64,000 nucleotides of DNA from Mucilaginibacter sabulilitoris. Lineage in GTDB: Bacteria > Bacteroidota > Bacteroidia > Sphingobacteriales > Sphingobacteriaceae. The notes beneath the pieces were generated by a model that had not been told where the DNA came from, did not search any database, and was given only the letters and a program-made list of their open reading frames with translations. The stretch lies in contig NZ_CP139558.1 in the NCBI RefSeq assembly GCF_034262375.1, forward strand, positions 1,302,001 through 1,366,000. The letters run 5' to 3'. Positions within the stretch are counted from its first letter, which is position 1. Every line of letters starts with the position of its first letter. Position numbers and translations under genes: made by a program. Shown here in pieces: positions 40,165 through 44,545 of this stretch.

Positions 40165-40474
40165 TTAATTATAAATTACTTTCATGGAAATACAGATGGC
40201 ATCCGGGCAAATATAAGGTAAATTCTAACCTGCCGGCATCCCCGGTACCATGCCAAAACTTTTTACTAAGCTATAATAAGCAGCGTACTCCCGGTACCTA
40301 TTTATGGCTCAGTTAGACATTTATAAACTTAAAGCAGACGATGTACACTTTGAATAATACAACGGCATTTGCCAGTGCTAACTTCAAACTGTAAGGCATT
40401 AAAAAAACAAGGCTTCTACATTAATCAATGTAGAAGCCTTGTGCAGAACATTCAAGTTTGTAGCTGAATGCTAT
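40165..40474. other. Intergenic stretch with kinase promoter and terminator
   Basis: 310 bp. It holds the upstream region of the minus-strand kinase gene and the terminator of the small acidic gene at its right end. No convincing coding frame was seen. Confidence 0.6.
40400..40442 (-). terminator. Intrinsic terminator of the small acidic gene
   Basis: ACAAGGCTTCTACATT (40407-40422) and AATGTAGAAGCCTTGT (40427-40442) form a perfect 16-bp stem with loop AATC. On the minus strand it is followed by a run of T, so it terminates leftward transcription. Confidence 0.88.
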
Positions 40475-40708
40475 TTACTCTTTGTCTTTTTTGGCAGGTG
40501 GTTCGTCGTTATCGTAGTTTAAGGTATAAGACGATTCTGATGCCCTGAATGATTGGTTTAAAAGATCGGTGGGAGGCTCATCACTTTCCGGCGACGGTAT
40601 TCTTTCTTCATCCAGACCATTTGAATGCACATCCTGCTGGCTTCGCTGATCGTCTTTGTCTCCGTCTTCGAGGTCGTCAAGAGGGAGTTCGTCTTCTGGG
40701 TTAATCAT
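40475..40708 (-). CDS. Small acidic disordered protein, 77 residues
   Basis: Rich in Asp, Glu, Pro, Ser and Gln (EDELPLDDLEDGDKDDQ; EERIPSPESDEPPTDLL) with no hydrophobic core, so it is probably disordered. No family recognised. A strong terminator follows its stop codon and it starts with ATG, which support a real gene. Similar short acidic proteins are common in Sphingobacteriaceae but have no known role. It lies 95 bp after the alkylation-repair operon and may be read together with it. Confidence 0.55.
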   Translation of the reverse strand: MINPEDELPLDDLEDGDKDDQRSQQDVHSNGLDEERIPSPESDEPPTDLLNQSFRASESSYTLNYDNDEPPAKKDKE

Positions 40709-40803: not shown

Positions 40804-41415
40804 TCAAACCGCCATTTGAGGTATATAACCCTCACTGAACATATTTACAAAAGACCTGGGGGTAAGTACCGTCAACTTTTCTGCTTCGGGCAACACAATC
40901 GGGTTTCCATAACCTCCGGGGCTCCACAAAAACAATTGGTTTTGCTTAAACAGGTGGGGTTTGTCTTTGTATAACACGAGTGTACCGTCGGGAAGTGCTT
41001 TGGGATTTTCCTCATAAGTAACTTTTGATTTGTCGGCGGCAATCCTTTCCGATTGAAGGATGTCGTCTATCCTGGCTACCGGGGTTTTCATATCAAAACC
41101 ATATTGCGGGTTACCCTTTAACCAAAATTCTTTAAAACGTATATGATCTGCGTACCGGCACTGAAAACAAGGGCGGTGCCCGGCTGAGAACGCGGTGGCC
41201 TCGTCTAAAAAGAAAAGCTCGGTCCAACGGTCGGGTGTCATCACTTTGCGGTAGCGCCCCCTGAATTCTAAAACGCAGGTGATCCACGCCTTTATTTTAA
41301 AAGGACGTATAATTTCTTTCTGCTCATTATGTATCACCCCTCTGTTCCCGAGCCACGCGCCGCGTTCGGGAGTTTTAATAATGTTGCCAAGTGGGTCAAC
41401 TCTGTTTTGTAACAT
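40804..41415 (-). CDS. Unknown protein with Ada-like GHRPCxxC motif, alkylation-repair operon
   Basis: 203 residues, cytosolic, no family I can name. ATAFSAGHRPCFQCRYAD (Cys83, Cys86, with His80 and His91 nearby) resembles the second half of the Ada methyl-phosphotriester domain, where GFRPCKRC supplies two zinc ligands. The first half (CxxxC, with the methyl-accepting Cys) is missing, and only one more Cys (Cys47) is present. The rest is basic and aromatic (FKIKAWITCVLEFRGRYRKVMTPDRW; LFKQNQLFLWSPGGYGNP). It lies 42 bp after the methyltransferase gene and should be in the same operon behind the 16-bp box. A DNA-related role is inferred; homology to Ada is unproven. Confidence 0.6.
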   Translation of the reverse strand: MLQNRVDPLGNIIKTPERGAWLGNRGVIHNEQKEIIRPFKIKAWITCVLEFRGRYRKVMTPDRWTELFFLDEATAFSAGHRPCFQCRYADHIRFKEFWLKGNPQYGFDMKTPVARIDDILQSERIAADKSKVTYEENPKALPDGTLVLYKDKPHLFKQNQLFLWSPGGYGNPIVLPEAEKLTVLTPRSFVNMFSEGYIPQMAV

Positions 41416-41457: not shown

Positions 41458-42114
41458 TTACCGCTCATTGTCTTCATAAGCAAGCAGTTTTCTTTTTACC
41501 TCACTGCCCCAATAATAACGATCAAAACTGCCGTCAGACCGAACCGCGCGATGGCATGGTAAAATATAGCTTACCGGATTGGCGCCCACAGCTGTTCCGG
41601 TGGCCCGCGCATTCCGGACGCCATTAGCTAACGCCGCATAAGTAGTAATCCCGCCAAAAGGCACCAGGGTCAGTCTTTTCCATACATTTAACTGGAACGC
41701 GGTACCTTTTAAATGAAGATGTACCGGGAGGTTAAGCTCCGGACTATTTAAATGCGCCACGGCTTCCTTTATATATTCCGTTTCTTTCTCCGGAAAAATG
41801 CTCCCGGGAAATCTTCTTTTAAGATCGGCAAACGCAAATGTCCTATCGCCATTTGTAAAACCTAAAAAGCAGACTCCCTTTATTGTAGCCGCTATAAGTA
41901 CTTCTCCAATTGTGGTATCTGCTGTTTTCCAGAATATCGGCAAAGCATTGTCTTCCGGTTCCCATTCTGTTATTGTAAAGGCATCATTGGTCAATTGCAA
42001 TACGGTGTTATTAATGCGGTTTATAATAGCTGGCTTATTTAAAAGAGTATCCTCGTTTGCCGATTCATTCGATTTGTTTTTCATAGTAATTTCTGTATTA
42101 GCTAAGCGCATCAT
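41458..42114 (-). CDS. Methylated-DNA-[protein]-cysteine S-methyltransferase (first paralogue)
   Basis: 218 residues. Alkyl-acceptor motif SYILPCHRAVRSDG (PCHR; the next residue is Ala where Val is usual), with the preceding helix-turn-helix GTAFQLNVWKRLTLVPFGGITTYAALA and AVGANPVSYILPCHR. The N-terminal domain has TTIGEVLIAATIKGVCFLGF. About 60 extra residues precede it, including ITEWEPEDNALPIFW, which the paralogue at 43007 shares. It overlaps the oxygenase gene by 17 bp. It repairs O6-methylguanine and O4-methylthymine by suicide transfer. Confidence 0.9.
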   Translation of the reverse strand: MMRLANTEITMKNKSNESANEDTLLNKPAIINRINNTVLQLTNDAFTITEWEPEDNALPIFWKTADTTIGEVLIAATIKGVCFLGFTNGDRTFAFADLKRRFPGSIFPEKETEYIKEAVAHLNSPELNLPVHLHLKGTAFQLNVWKRLTLVPFGGITTYAALANGVRNARATGTAVGANPVSYILPCHRAVRSDGSFDRYYWGSEVKRKLLAYEDNER

Positions 42115-42826
42115 GAAATATAATGCCCAGGCTATGCCTATGCCCGCTATGCAGCGGACTTACACCGTGCTTCATATTAACCCTGTAGTATCCCTTGCTT
42201 CCCCTTACCGGCCGAAAGTTAGTAGTGAATAAAACCATGTCGCCCAAACCGGGTGTTAATACATTTGCTTTTGATTGCGCACGTGGTACCTGTTCGGTTA
42301 TCACAAACTCGCCGCCGGTATAGTCGTGGTTTATTTGATCAAGCATAAAAACCATTTGTAAAGGAAAATATACTTCTCCATACAAATCCTGGTGCAAGGT
42401 GTTAAACCCGCCTTCAGCATATTGCAATATCAATACGGTAGGTTTTGTTTGCCCTGCTGCATGGCTCAGGTTTTTCATCTCTTCATGGGCAGGGGGAAAT
42501 TGCTTATCGATCCCAAGTTCCTGCATCCATTTGTTGGCAACCGGTGCAATTTGAGGGTAAATACTTTCCCTTAAATTGGTAATGATAGTCGGCAAAGGGT
42601 ATTTATAATATTTGTACTCCCCGCTTCCAAACCGATAGCGCTCCATGTTTATTGTTTTCCGGTATTCATCGGCATTATAATCTTTAATCAGGGTATCGCA
42701 TTCCTCTTTATTCAAAACGTTTTTAACAATTACAAAACCCTTGTCATGTAAGGTCTTTGTAATTTCCTGCCAGTTAAGGTTGTCTATACGTTGTTTAATA
42801 GTTAAAGCCCGTTGTGTTTCCATCAT
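42098..42826 (-). CDS. 2OG-Fe(II) oxygenase, probable alkylation-repair associated
   Basis: 242 residues (two adjacent ATGs). HQD in GGFNTLHQDLYGEVYFPLQ gives the first two metal ligands. GHRHSLGIIFHD near the C-terminus gives the distal His/Arg region. It has the jelly-roll strands of prolyl-hydroxylase/AlkB-type oxygenases (FVITEQVPRAQSKANVLTPGLGDMVLF) but lacks the AlkB nucleotide-recognition lid that I would expect. It is the first gene of an operon with a DNA methyltransferase, so nucleic-acid or protein demethylation is a reasonable guess, not shown. Its start is 14 bp from a TAATTTTG -7 element. Confidence 0.78.
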   Translation of the reverse strand: MMETQRALTIKQRIDNLNWQEITKTLHDKGFVIVKNVLNKEECDTLIKDYNADEYRKTINMERYRFGSGEYKYYKYPLPTIITNLRESIYPQIAPVANKWMQELGIDKQFPPAHEEMKNLSHAAGQTKPTVLILQYAEGGFNTLHQDLYGEVYFPLQMVFMLDQINHDYTGGEFVITEQVPRAQSKANVLTPGLGDMVLFTTNFRPVRGSKGYYRVNMKHGVSPLHSGHRHSLGIIFHDALS

Positions 42827-42840
42827 TCAAAAGTTTAGTT

Positions 42841-42982
42841 CAAAATTAATGGCGGCCGAACGGTTACAAACCCGTTTCTTGCTATGTTGCATTATGGTTT
42901 ATAATCTTCATAAAGTGCTGAGTAGTATATTTAAAGTCAGCAAGAAACGGGTTTAAACGAGGCAATTAGTAAGATAATTTTG
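42841..42982. promoter_or_regulatory. Mirror-image divergent promoters with identical 16-bp boxes
   Basis: AAACCCGTTTCTTGCT at 42868-42883 and its exact reverse complement at 42939-42954 flank a 55-bp spacer. Outside each box is TAATTTTG: minus strand at 42841-42848 (19 bp away) and plus strand at 42975-42982 (20 bp away). Both boxes therefore cover the -33 position of their own promoter in the same orientation. This is the layout of a class II activator site, most likely for the AraC-methyltransferase protein encoded at 43694. Confidence 0.7.
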
Positions 42983-43006
42983 TAGTGTAACAAAAAGGAA
43001 TAAATC

Positions 43007-43660
43007 ATGAAAGCTCAATTAAATTTATTTAGTAACGGTTTAACCGGCACAGATAACAGTTCAGCAATTTTAGATAAGGCTGTATTGAAGGAGCGTATTA
43101 AAAACACTCATTTTCAATCTGCCCATCCATCGTTTATCATAGTAAAATGGGAGGCTGGCGATGAGCTATTGCCCATGTATTATACAATTGAAGAAACACC
43201 ACTGGGCGAGGTTTTAATAGCCGCTACTTCAAAGGGTATAACTTATCTGGGGTTTATTGTTAAGGATGAAACCAAAGCTATAGCCGATGTAAAAAAGCGC
43301 TTCCCCGAAAGTAATTTAATGGCAGGCAGTACAGATTGGCATATCGCAGCAATAAACCGGATAGAAAATCCCGAAACCGAACAGCCATTACATTTGCATT
43401 TAAAAGGTACCGAATACCAGTTAAGCATTTGGGAAAAGCTGTTGTTGATCCCTTTCGGCGGGGTTACAAACTACAAAATGTTAGGTGATGGTAATCCCGA
43501 TTCGCGGGAGATTGGCGCAGCCGTAGGAGCGAATCCGGTTGGTTATTTGATCCCTTGCCACCGGGTTATCCGGGCCGATGGTAATTTTTATGGCTTTTTC
43601 TGGGGAAATAAGGTTAAAGCTCATTTATTAACTTATGAGGCCGTATGTGCTGTCAATTAA
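43007..43660 (+). CDS. Methylated-DNA-[protein]-cysteine S-methyltransferase (second paralogue)
   Basis: 217 residues. GTEYQLSIWEKLLLIPFGGVTNYKML leads to the acceptor motif PVGYLIPCHRVIRADG with Cys in PCHRV; it ends FFWGNKVKAHLLTYE. The N-terminal part has ETPLGEVLIAATSKGITYLGF and the extra segment FIIVKWEAGDELLPMYY shared with the paralogue on the other strand. It is the first gene right of the mirrored boxes and is followed 33 bp later by the AraC-methyltransferase fusion. It may be a second suicide repair enzyme with different substrate range. Confidence 0.9.
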   Translation: MKAQLNLFSNGLTGTDNSSAILDKAVLKERIKNTHFQSAHPSFIIVKWEAGDELLPMYYTIEETPLGEVLIAATSKGITYLGFIVKDETKAIADVKKRFPESNLMAGSTDWHIAAINRIENPETEQPLHLHLKGTEYQLSIWEKLLLIPFGGVTNYKMLGDGNPDSREIGAAVGANPVGYLIPCHRVIRADGNFYGFFWGNKVKAHLLTYEAVCAVN

Positions 43661-43693: not shown

Positions 43694-44545
43694 ATGAAAA
43701 CGCAACAGGAAATAGATTATAACAGAATAGCGGAGGCGATTAGTTTCTTCAGGGAAAACTTTAAATCGCAGCCAAGCCTTGATGATGTTGCCGAACACGT
43801 GCACCTCAGCCCATTTCATTTTCAACGTATGTTTTTGGAATGGGCCGGGGTAACGCCAAAGCAATTTCTCCAGTACCTGAGCATAGAACATGCTAAGGAA
43901 ATATTAAAAAACACCAATTCGAACCTTTTTGAAACGGCCTTTGAAACTGGTTTATCAGGTACCGGCAGGCTGCACGACCTGTTTATCAAGGTTGAGGGGA
44001 TGACACCCGGCGAATATAAAAACGGCGGCTCGTCGCTTCAAATCAATTATTCGTTTGCCGATACGCCATTTGGTAAGGTGATCGTAGCGTCTACCAATAA
44101 AGGGATATGCCACATGGCGTTTGTTGACGAGGGTGAAGAATTGGCCCTGGAAAAATTGAAGGCAAATTATCCAAACGCAGCTTACAGCCAGCTTGTGGAC
44201 AGGATACAGCAAAATGCCCTGTTTATTTTTACGCAGGACTGGAGCCGTCTGGATGAAATAAAACTGCACCTAAAAGGCACCGACTTTCAGATAAAGGTAT
44301 GGGAAACGTTATTAAAAGTGCCGCCGGGCGGACTTACCACCTATGGCGACCTTGCCAAAAAAGCAGGCTTTGAAAAAGCATCAAGAGCGGTTGGAACCAG
44401 CGTTGGGAACAATCCCGTAGCATTCCTGATACCCTGTCACCGGGTTATCAAATCAACCGGCGAAATTGGGCAGTATCATTGGGGATCTGCACGCAAAAAT
44501 GCCATTATTGGCTGGGAAGCAGCTTTGCAACGAAAGGCTTCTTAA
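43694..44545 (+). CDS. Ada-like AraC HTH fused to methylguanine-DNA methyltransferase
   Basis: 283 residues. Residues 8-105 are an AraC/XylS double HTH (FKSQPSLDDVAEHVHLSPFHFQRMFLEWAGVTPKQFL; SGTGRLHDLFIKVEGMTPGEY). Residues 115-280 are an O6-alkylguanine methyltransferase with FQIKVWETLLKVPPGGLTTYGDLAKKAG and acceptor PVAFLIPCHRVIKSTGEIG. The Zn-containing N-terminal Ada domain (methyl-phosphotriester sensor) is absent, so methyl transfer to the only acceptor Cys is the likely switch. Expected to autoregulate through the 16-bp boxes. Ends in a terminator. Confidence 0.92.
   Translation: MKTQQEIDYNRIAEAISFFRENFKSQPSLDDVAEHVHLSPFHFQRMFLEWAGVTPKQFLQYLSIEHAKEILKNTNSNLFETAFETGLSGTGRLHDLFIKVEGMTPGEYKNGGSSLQINYSFADTPFGKVIVASTNKGICHMAFVDEGEELALEKLKANYPNAAYSQLVDRIQQNALFIFTQDWSRLDEIKLHLKGTDFQIKVWETLLKVPPGGLTTYGDLAKKAGFEKASRAVGTSVGNNPVAFLIPCHRVIKSTGEIGQYHWGSARKNAIIGWEAALQRKAS

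Follow-up and report, generated by a model that had tools for sequence, protein, structure and literature searches.

A likely Cada2-type adaptive-response regulon with a Bacteroidota operator-promoter layout in Mucilaginibacter sabulilitoris

The window described in this report is the whole analysed stretch of 64,000 nucleotides of Mucilaginibacter sabulilitoris DNA (contig NZ_CP139558.1). Two gene runs diverge in it from an intergenic region of 180 bp (42827-43006). The left run, on the minus strand, begins with a 2OG-Fe(II) oxygenase (42098..42826) assigned by its Pfam match to the Oxygenase-NA family (PF09859), for which Caulobacter gave the sole match among 14 control genomes. It continues with a stand-alone O6-methylguanine-DNA methyltransferase (41458..42114; PF01035, with a PCHR motif) and with U203, a 203-aa protein of an unnamed family that is probably a member of the operon (40804..41415). 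A terminator-like hairpin on the same strand (40407..40442) marks the end of the run; it comes from a hairpin scan whose total of 7 is not above that of shuffled sequence (mean 5.0). The right operon, on the plus strand, opens with another stand-alone O6-methylguanine-DNA methyltransferase (43007..43660; PF01035, PCHR), and its second gene encodes a fusion of an AraC-type double helix-turn-helix to a methyltransferase (43694..44545), the putative Cada2-type regulator. The sequence-only reading had counted six genes in one alkylation response. Five of them are supported here; the other, a 77-aa acidic ORF on the minus strand between U203 and the hairpin (40475..40708), is a doubtful member and does not adjoin U203 in locus L080 of the same-genus genome G074, and another likely target is located beyond the window.

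U203 has 7101 homologues and gave no match in Pfam or NCBIfam. Three cysteines, Cys47, Cys83, and Cys86, are invariant in 37 aligned sequences, and the segment FFxDEAxAxxAGHRPCxxCR is weakly similar to the latter half of the Ada zinc domain (hhalign probability 86.6 over 38 columns). The predicted structure has a mean pLDDT of 69.5, with residues 43-81 under 50. Since the model found no fold match in the PDB (best E 0.3), the likeness to the Ada zinc domain is a lead given by the 38-column profile match, and U203 is possibly a distant methyl-acceptor or zinc protein. The family also occurs in Pedobacter; within the genus it lies beside the switch in some loci only (L012, L014, L056, L057, L063, and L080).

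AAACCCGTTTCTTGCT occupies 42868-42883 of the intergenic region, and its exact reverse complement occupies 42939-42954, with all 16 bp complementary and 55 nt between the arms. Read toward its own operon, i.e., on the minus strand for the left operon and on the plus strand for the right, each of these operator boxes is AGCAAGAAACGGGTTT, which contains the B-box GCAA and the X-box CGG and is a case of the motif shared with relatives, GCAAG-WWW-CGG-RTTT. The TAnnTTTG type of promoter is characteristic of Bacteroidota, and a -7 element of this type, TAATTTTG, follows each box: at 42841..42848 on the minus strand, 19 bp beyond the left box, and at 42975..42982 on the plus strand, 20 bp beyond the right one. 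Counted from the start of GCAA to the start of TAnnTTTG, the spacings are 34 and 35 nt, respectively. Coordinates, sequence, orientation, spacing, and the allotment of one box to each divergent operon are all as the sequence-only reading had given them, and its view that an identity over 16 bp is improbable by chance was borne out: when the 180-bp intergenic region was dinucleotide-shuffled 400 times, the longest perfect inverted match averaged 8.4 and peaked at 14, never reaching 16.

The exact 16-mer occurs at these two places only in the 7.55-Mb genome, where the next best sites have two mismatches. With up to three mismatches, the window yields 4 sites where 0.89 would be expected, a count reached by 3 of 100 shuffles, and the whole genome has 91 against 79 for the reversed pattern. 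Loose matches thus carry little weight, and the case is made by the exact pair and by the conservation. We also considered the mirror pair itself as the functional unit and rejected it, a single box being the rule in most fusion promoters examined. The equivalent pair in G074 (L080) consists of two boxes that differ from each other, and the conserved unit in relatives is one asymmetric box per promoter; the mirrored layout in the window arises because the two promoters diverge.

The 43694 protein carries SPFHFQR at residues 39-45, RLHD at 92-95, and PCHR at 247-250. Among 16 aligned sequences, H42, F43, Q44, and R45 of the first motif are invariant, as are R92 and D95 of the second (three of the 16 have RLYD or RVYD in place of RLHD) and the whole of PCHR; the PF01035 match scores 98 bits. 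An HTH_18 match to residues 33-110 covers RLHD, so that both SPFHFQR and RLHD fall inside one AraC-type unit, and RLHD looks like the second of the two helix-turn-helices typical of the AraC layout rather than a separate domain. The Ada zinc domain (PF02805) is absent from the protein, and a profile search found none in the genome; the same search matches 6 of the 14 control genomes, including E. coli and Caulobacter.

These features recall Cada2 of Caulobacter crescentus (Kamat et al. 2024; PMC10957082), which in the main text of that paper has an AraC-like B-box domain, RLHD, and a PCHR methyltransferase, and no A-box domain. Its promoters contain GCAA (B-box) and CGG (X-box) with a 3-bp AT-rich spacer between them, although the spacer is absent from the paper's list of regulatory features a-c. 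Either R68A or R114A impairs binding to the promoter; Cys267 becomes methylated under damage, with an alanine mutant inactive and a glycine mutant constitutive; and Cada2 contacts RpoA under damage in a two-hybrid test (PMC10957082). The paper also describes a Caulobacter operon, induced by methylation damage, that combines a 2OG-Fe dioxygenase with a methyltransferase. As far as this account of Cada2 goes, the window protein is alike in being AraC-type, with SPFHFQR for SPHFQR and the same RLHD, in its C-terminal PCHR methyltransferase, and in the absent A-box domain. Both window promoters carry the B-box and the X-box as Cada2 promoters do, the regulator's own gene or operon bears the site, and the regulator has a 2OG-Fe(II) oxygenase and a further methyltransferase beside it. 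The differences from the published description are a TAnnTTTG -7 element with the box as the only conserved element of the -33 region, two divergent operons that share one gap in the window, and a GCAA-CGG spacer of 4 bp in place of the stated 3, which becomes 3 if the next conserved G is counted in the B-box and so is perhaps a mere matter of naming. Taken together, the signatures in the protein and the GCAA/CGG boxes indicate that the window likely holds a Cada2-type adaptive-response regulon, a known kind, with a Bacteroidota operator-promoter layout.

Within the genus, the fusion was found in 104 of 120 genomes (E <= 1e-50), and the composite GCAAGNNNCGGNT-(15-22)-TANNTTTG in 93 of the 120; it has 139 matches in all, and the reversed pattern has 15. 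A box and promoter at the canonical 42-43 nt spacing are present in 91 of the 104 fusion-bearing genomes and in 0 of the 16 without the fusion (Fisher p 2.2e-12; 7 of these 16 are under 90% complete); this count takes 42-43 nt matches only and leaves out G130, which has a 36-nt match and no fusion, and G084, which has the fusion and a 40-nt match. That the canonical spacing occurs solely in fusion-bearing genomes lends support to the AraC-methyltransferase fusion as the probable regulator, the candidate favored by the sequence-only reading. The fusion-bearing genomes that lack a canonical site comprise 12 with no match to the strict pattern, together with G084. The six of these 13 that were inspected show variants: GCAAC in G006, G010, and G028, GCAAT in G021, ACAAG in G004, and one extra spacing base in G003. 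When the sites are sought from the protein, 28 of 30 same-genus loci have GCAA-N4-CGG no more than 250 bp before the fusion gene, and the two exceptions are the window, where the box heads the operon, and L033, with ACAAGTTTCGGG (ACAA).

Beyond the genus, we took 80 named loci, the best 80 of 310, whose fusion proteins are 64-83% identical to the query; they include Bacteroides, Flavobacterium, Chitinophaga, Pedobacter, Aquimarina, Dysgonomonas, Runella, Saprospiraceae, and others. Seventy of them carry GCAA-N4-CGG in the 250 bp before the fusion gene, against about 1.1 expected by chance (0.0136 per 250 bp, from the rest of the same loci), but the loci are not independent, since 15 are labelled Mucilaginibacter and come partly from the same genomes as the genus test. 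GCAA-N3-CGG occurs in one locus and GCAA-N5-CGG in two. Among the ten misses, the box heads the operon in L122, L144, and L165, and one-base variants are visible by eye in L121, L126, L128, L131, L138, and L189, which leaves L129. The sequence-only reading had proposed to look for the box near homologous operons, and it is conserved there both inside the genus and outside it. An earlier scan of the phylum with the exact pattern gave 37 of 395 genomes and is superseded by this protein-anchored comparison; its matches beyond the family mostly look chance-like, since GATTTG-type -7 elements and other variants escape the strict pattern.

Aligned sites from 74 of the 80 loci give an A at -6 followed by (A/C)GCAAG-WWW-CGG-RTTT, a consensus in which only the positions outside the selecting bases are independent evidence, the sites having been picked by GCA and CGG or by GCAAG and variants of CGG. 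The A six bases before GCAA is present in 65 of the 74 sites and is the sole strongly conserved base just before GCAA; G follows GCAA in 64, and the site can thus equally be written GCAAG-WWW-CGG. The start of.AnnTTTG follows that of GCAA by 35 nt in 64 of the sites (TAnnTTTG in 39), by 34 nt in 4, and by 21 nt in 2. The bases between the box and the -7 element are not conserved. Nor do the aligned sites show a separate conserved -33 element; the RTTT end of the box lies at that place.

Plasmid loci were also surveyed, nine of 119 matched records. The form GCAAGAATCGGGT is present in those of Acaryochloris and Hymenobacter, the latter a member of the Bacteroidota, and one-base variants were recognized by eye in two of Sinorhizobium (ACAAGAATCGGGT), in Shinella (GCAGGAATCGGGT), and in Pseudorhodobacter (GCAGGAAACGGGT); no site was found in the other three of the nine, those of Sulfuricurvum, Flammeovirga, and Aeromonas. 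Two of the 80 named loci carry proteobacterial labels: L132, labelled Beijerinckiaceae, and L197, a Limnohabitans MAG, have Bacteroidota-like fusion genes, the former with a TAnnTTTG promoter as well, and both contigs are likely misbinned.

A third box with its -7 element, CAATTTTG, lies about 2.5 kb past the right end of the window, on the minus strand (G000:C1:1368458-1368500, equal to L222:1501-1543; box 1368486-1368500). The spacing is 43 nt, and 46 bp separate the end of the -7 element from a 230-aa flavin-reductase-type gene, which, judged from sequence, is likely the third target in the genome. A looser scan of the same genome gave 32 matches against 23 for the reversed control, so close to the control that we used only this one further site, with its full box and 43-nt spacing. 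The same family is boxed in 12 same-genus genomes, that of the window and 11 others. We also identified the first gene after 41 box-promoter sites in 35 same-genus regions: it is a flavin reductase in 12, the fusion or a paralogue in 8, an AlkB-type oxygenase in 5, an Oxygenase-NA protein in 5, a methyltransferase in 1, AlkA in 1, and a gene with no evident part in repair in 7, of which 4 are one Lrp-type regulator, with no gene in 2, shares that are not genome-wide rates since the regions were chosen for holding boxes, mainly away from the fusion gene. PF01613 was seen in both flavin reductases scanned.

Near the fusion gene, AlkB-type proteins occur in 33 of the 80 named loci, stand-alone Ada zinc proteins in 32, Oxygenase-NA proteins in 29, and U203 in 0. 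Nine further boxes were found in these loci, in 7 of them. A box that is not at the fusion gene stands in most cases before a repair gene or a flavin reductase. With neighbor genes that vary and a box and regulator that are constant, the repair operon appears fluid around a fixed switch.

Several side observations concern the boxed genes. A large helicase gene follows the flavin reductase in L071, L073, L076, and L083, and the one scanned, in L073, matches TIGR04121 (ligase-associated DEXH helicase). In four same-genus genomes (L070, L241, L242, and L243), an Lrp/AsnC-type regulator gene follows a box at a distance of 243-289 bp; in L070 a transporter-like gene (EamA by eye) comes next. Boxed acetyltransferase-like genes in a same-genus locus (L077:4492-5007) and in Dysgonomonas (L134:3264-3785) have starts that look alike by eye; Pfam gave a GNAT match in L077 and none in L134. 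Locus L081 (G139:C1:2494000-2510000) has five boxes within 10 kb, and two of the genes they precede are paralogues of the fusion that have the methyltransferase part but gave no Pfam helix-turn-helix match. The stand-alone Ada zinc-domain-like proteins near the fusion (e.g., in L171 and L190) are 79-118 aa long, and PF02805 is matched in L081:6787-7050. The zinc domain of E. coli Ada has four cysteines; three conserved ones are visible by eye in these proteins.

The boxes might belong to another regulator, of the AraC family or responding to stress, for which the fusion protein is merely one target. The genome contains many partial relatives of the fusion (39 matches at E <= 0.001, those to the AraC part and to the methyltransferase part taken together), and some boxed genes have no clear repair role, such as that of the Lrp-family regulator in 4 genomes. 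We nevertheless regard this explanation as improbable, given that a canonical-spacing box is missing from all 16 same-genus genomes that lack the fusion, that the box holds both published half-sites of a Cada2-type regulator, and that in most loci examined it precedes the regulator's own gene or operon. Still less credit is due to the idea that the inverted pair is incidental, as a hairpin, a terminator, or the remnant of a mobile element. A perfect 16-bp inverted repeat with a 55-nt loop is indeed present, but single boxes are conserved and most fusion promoters examined have one, the distance from box to promoter is near-fixed, the boxes lie upstream of predicted starts, and terminator-like hairpins were found elsewhere; we consider the probability of an incidental structure to be very low.

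An E. coli-type Ada response, in which a methylated zinc-bound cysteine in the N-terminal Ada domain drives binding to an A-box and a B-box, has some points in common with the locus. E. coli Ada likewise fuses a methyltransferase to an AraC-type part, uses the B-box GCAA, and controls a small alkylation-repair regulon that includes itself; the conserved A before GCAA might speak for such a response, and the fusion scores 159.7 bits on the NCBIfam Ada model, which is below the cut-off of 345. Unlike the window protein, E. coli Ada has an N-terminal zinc/phosphotriester domain, and the missing PF02805, in protein and genome alike, contradicts this type of response, the search being one that matches E. 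coli and Caulobacter. As for the operators, that of E. coli has an AAT A-box, and here the conserved second half-site, the partner of GCAA, is CGG. An E. coli-type mechanism is therefore very unlikely, and from the sequence-only assignment to an Ada-type regulon we retain the adaptive-response regulator and replace the E. coli type by the Cada2 type. AdaA, which joins a zinc domain to an AraC part without a PCHR methyltransferase, is likewise an AraC-type regulator of alkylation repair, but the window protein has the opposite make-up. The AdaA-type adaptive response is among those named in PMC10957082.

We conclude, with considerable confidence, that both boxes are predicted binding sites of the 43694 protein and that this Cada2-type regulator, once methylated by damaged DNA, would activate both repair operons, its own included. 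By analogy with Cada2 and with AraC-family structure, the first helix-turn-helix (SPFHFQR) would read GCAA and the second (RLHD) CGG, and methylation of Cys248 in PCHR would activate the protein. The activator would sit on about -47 to -32, in place of a -33 element; we infer this replacement from the end of the box at the expected -33 position and from the absence of any other conserved -33 element in the aligned sites, and as a consequence the promoters would be off without the activator. The Cys248-methylated protein, bound or nearly bound, would then recruit RNA polymerase, and both operons and the regulator itself would rise. Because the 180-bp gap holds two boxes, the operon of oxygenase, methyltransferase, and U203 and that of methyltransferase and regulator would rise together, with positive feedback.

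A broader reading, which we put forward tentatively and at somewhat less than even chances, is that of a phylum-wide Cada2-type response in Bacteroidota, in which the operator replaces the -33 element and the promoters would depend wholly on the methylated regulator. Its new repair partners would be a flavin-reductase-type protein and U203, the latter maybe acting as a split-off Ada-zinc-like methyl sensor or repair factor. The word “flavin” is absent from the main text of PMC10957082. The sequence-only reading had known of no described operator for such fusions; that claim does not hold for the type, since the GCAA and CGG operator was published for Caulobacter in 2024 (PMC10957082), and among the open-licence papers listed in the searches none names an Ada or Cada2 operator of Bacteroidota.

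The kind of system, a Cada2-type response, is therefore already published, and what is added here is the Bacteroidota operator-promoter layout and new candidate members. The Cada2 motif is extended by many aligned sites, and its extent is refined to GCAAG-WWW-CGG-RTTT. The flavin-reductase family, U203, and the GNAT protein are new candidate repair genes that could not have been placed here by sequence similarity alone. The result is a base-level prediction of the DNA methylation response in a phylum that includes gut, soil, and water bacteria, with one operator, one promoter layout, one regulator, and a defined list of genes.
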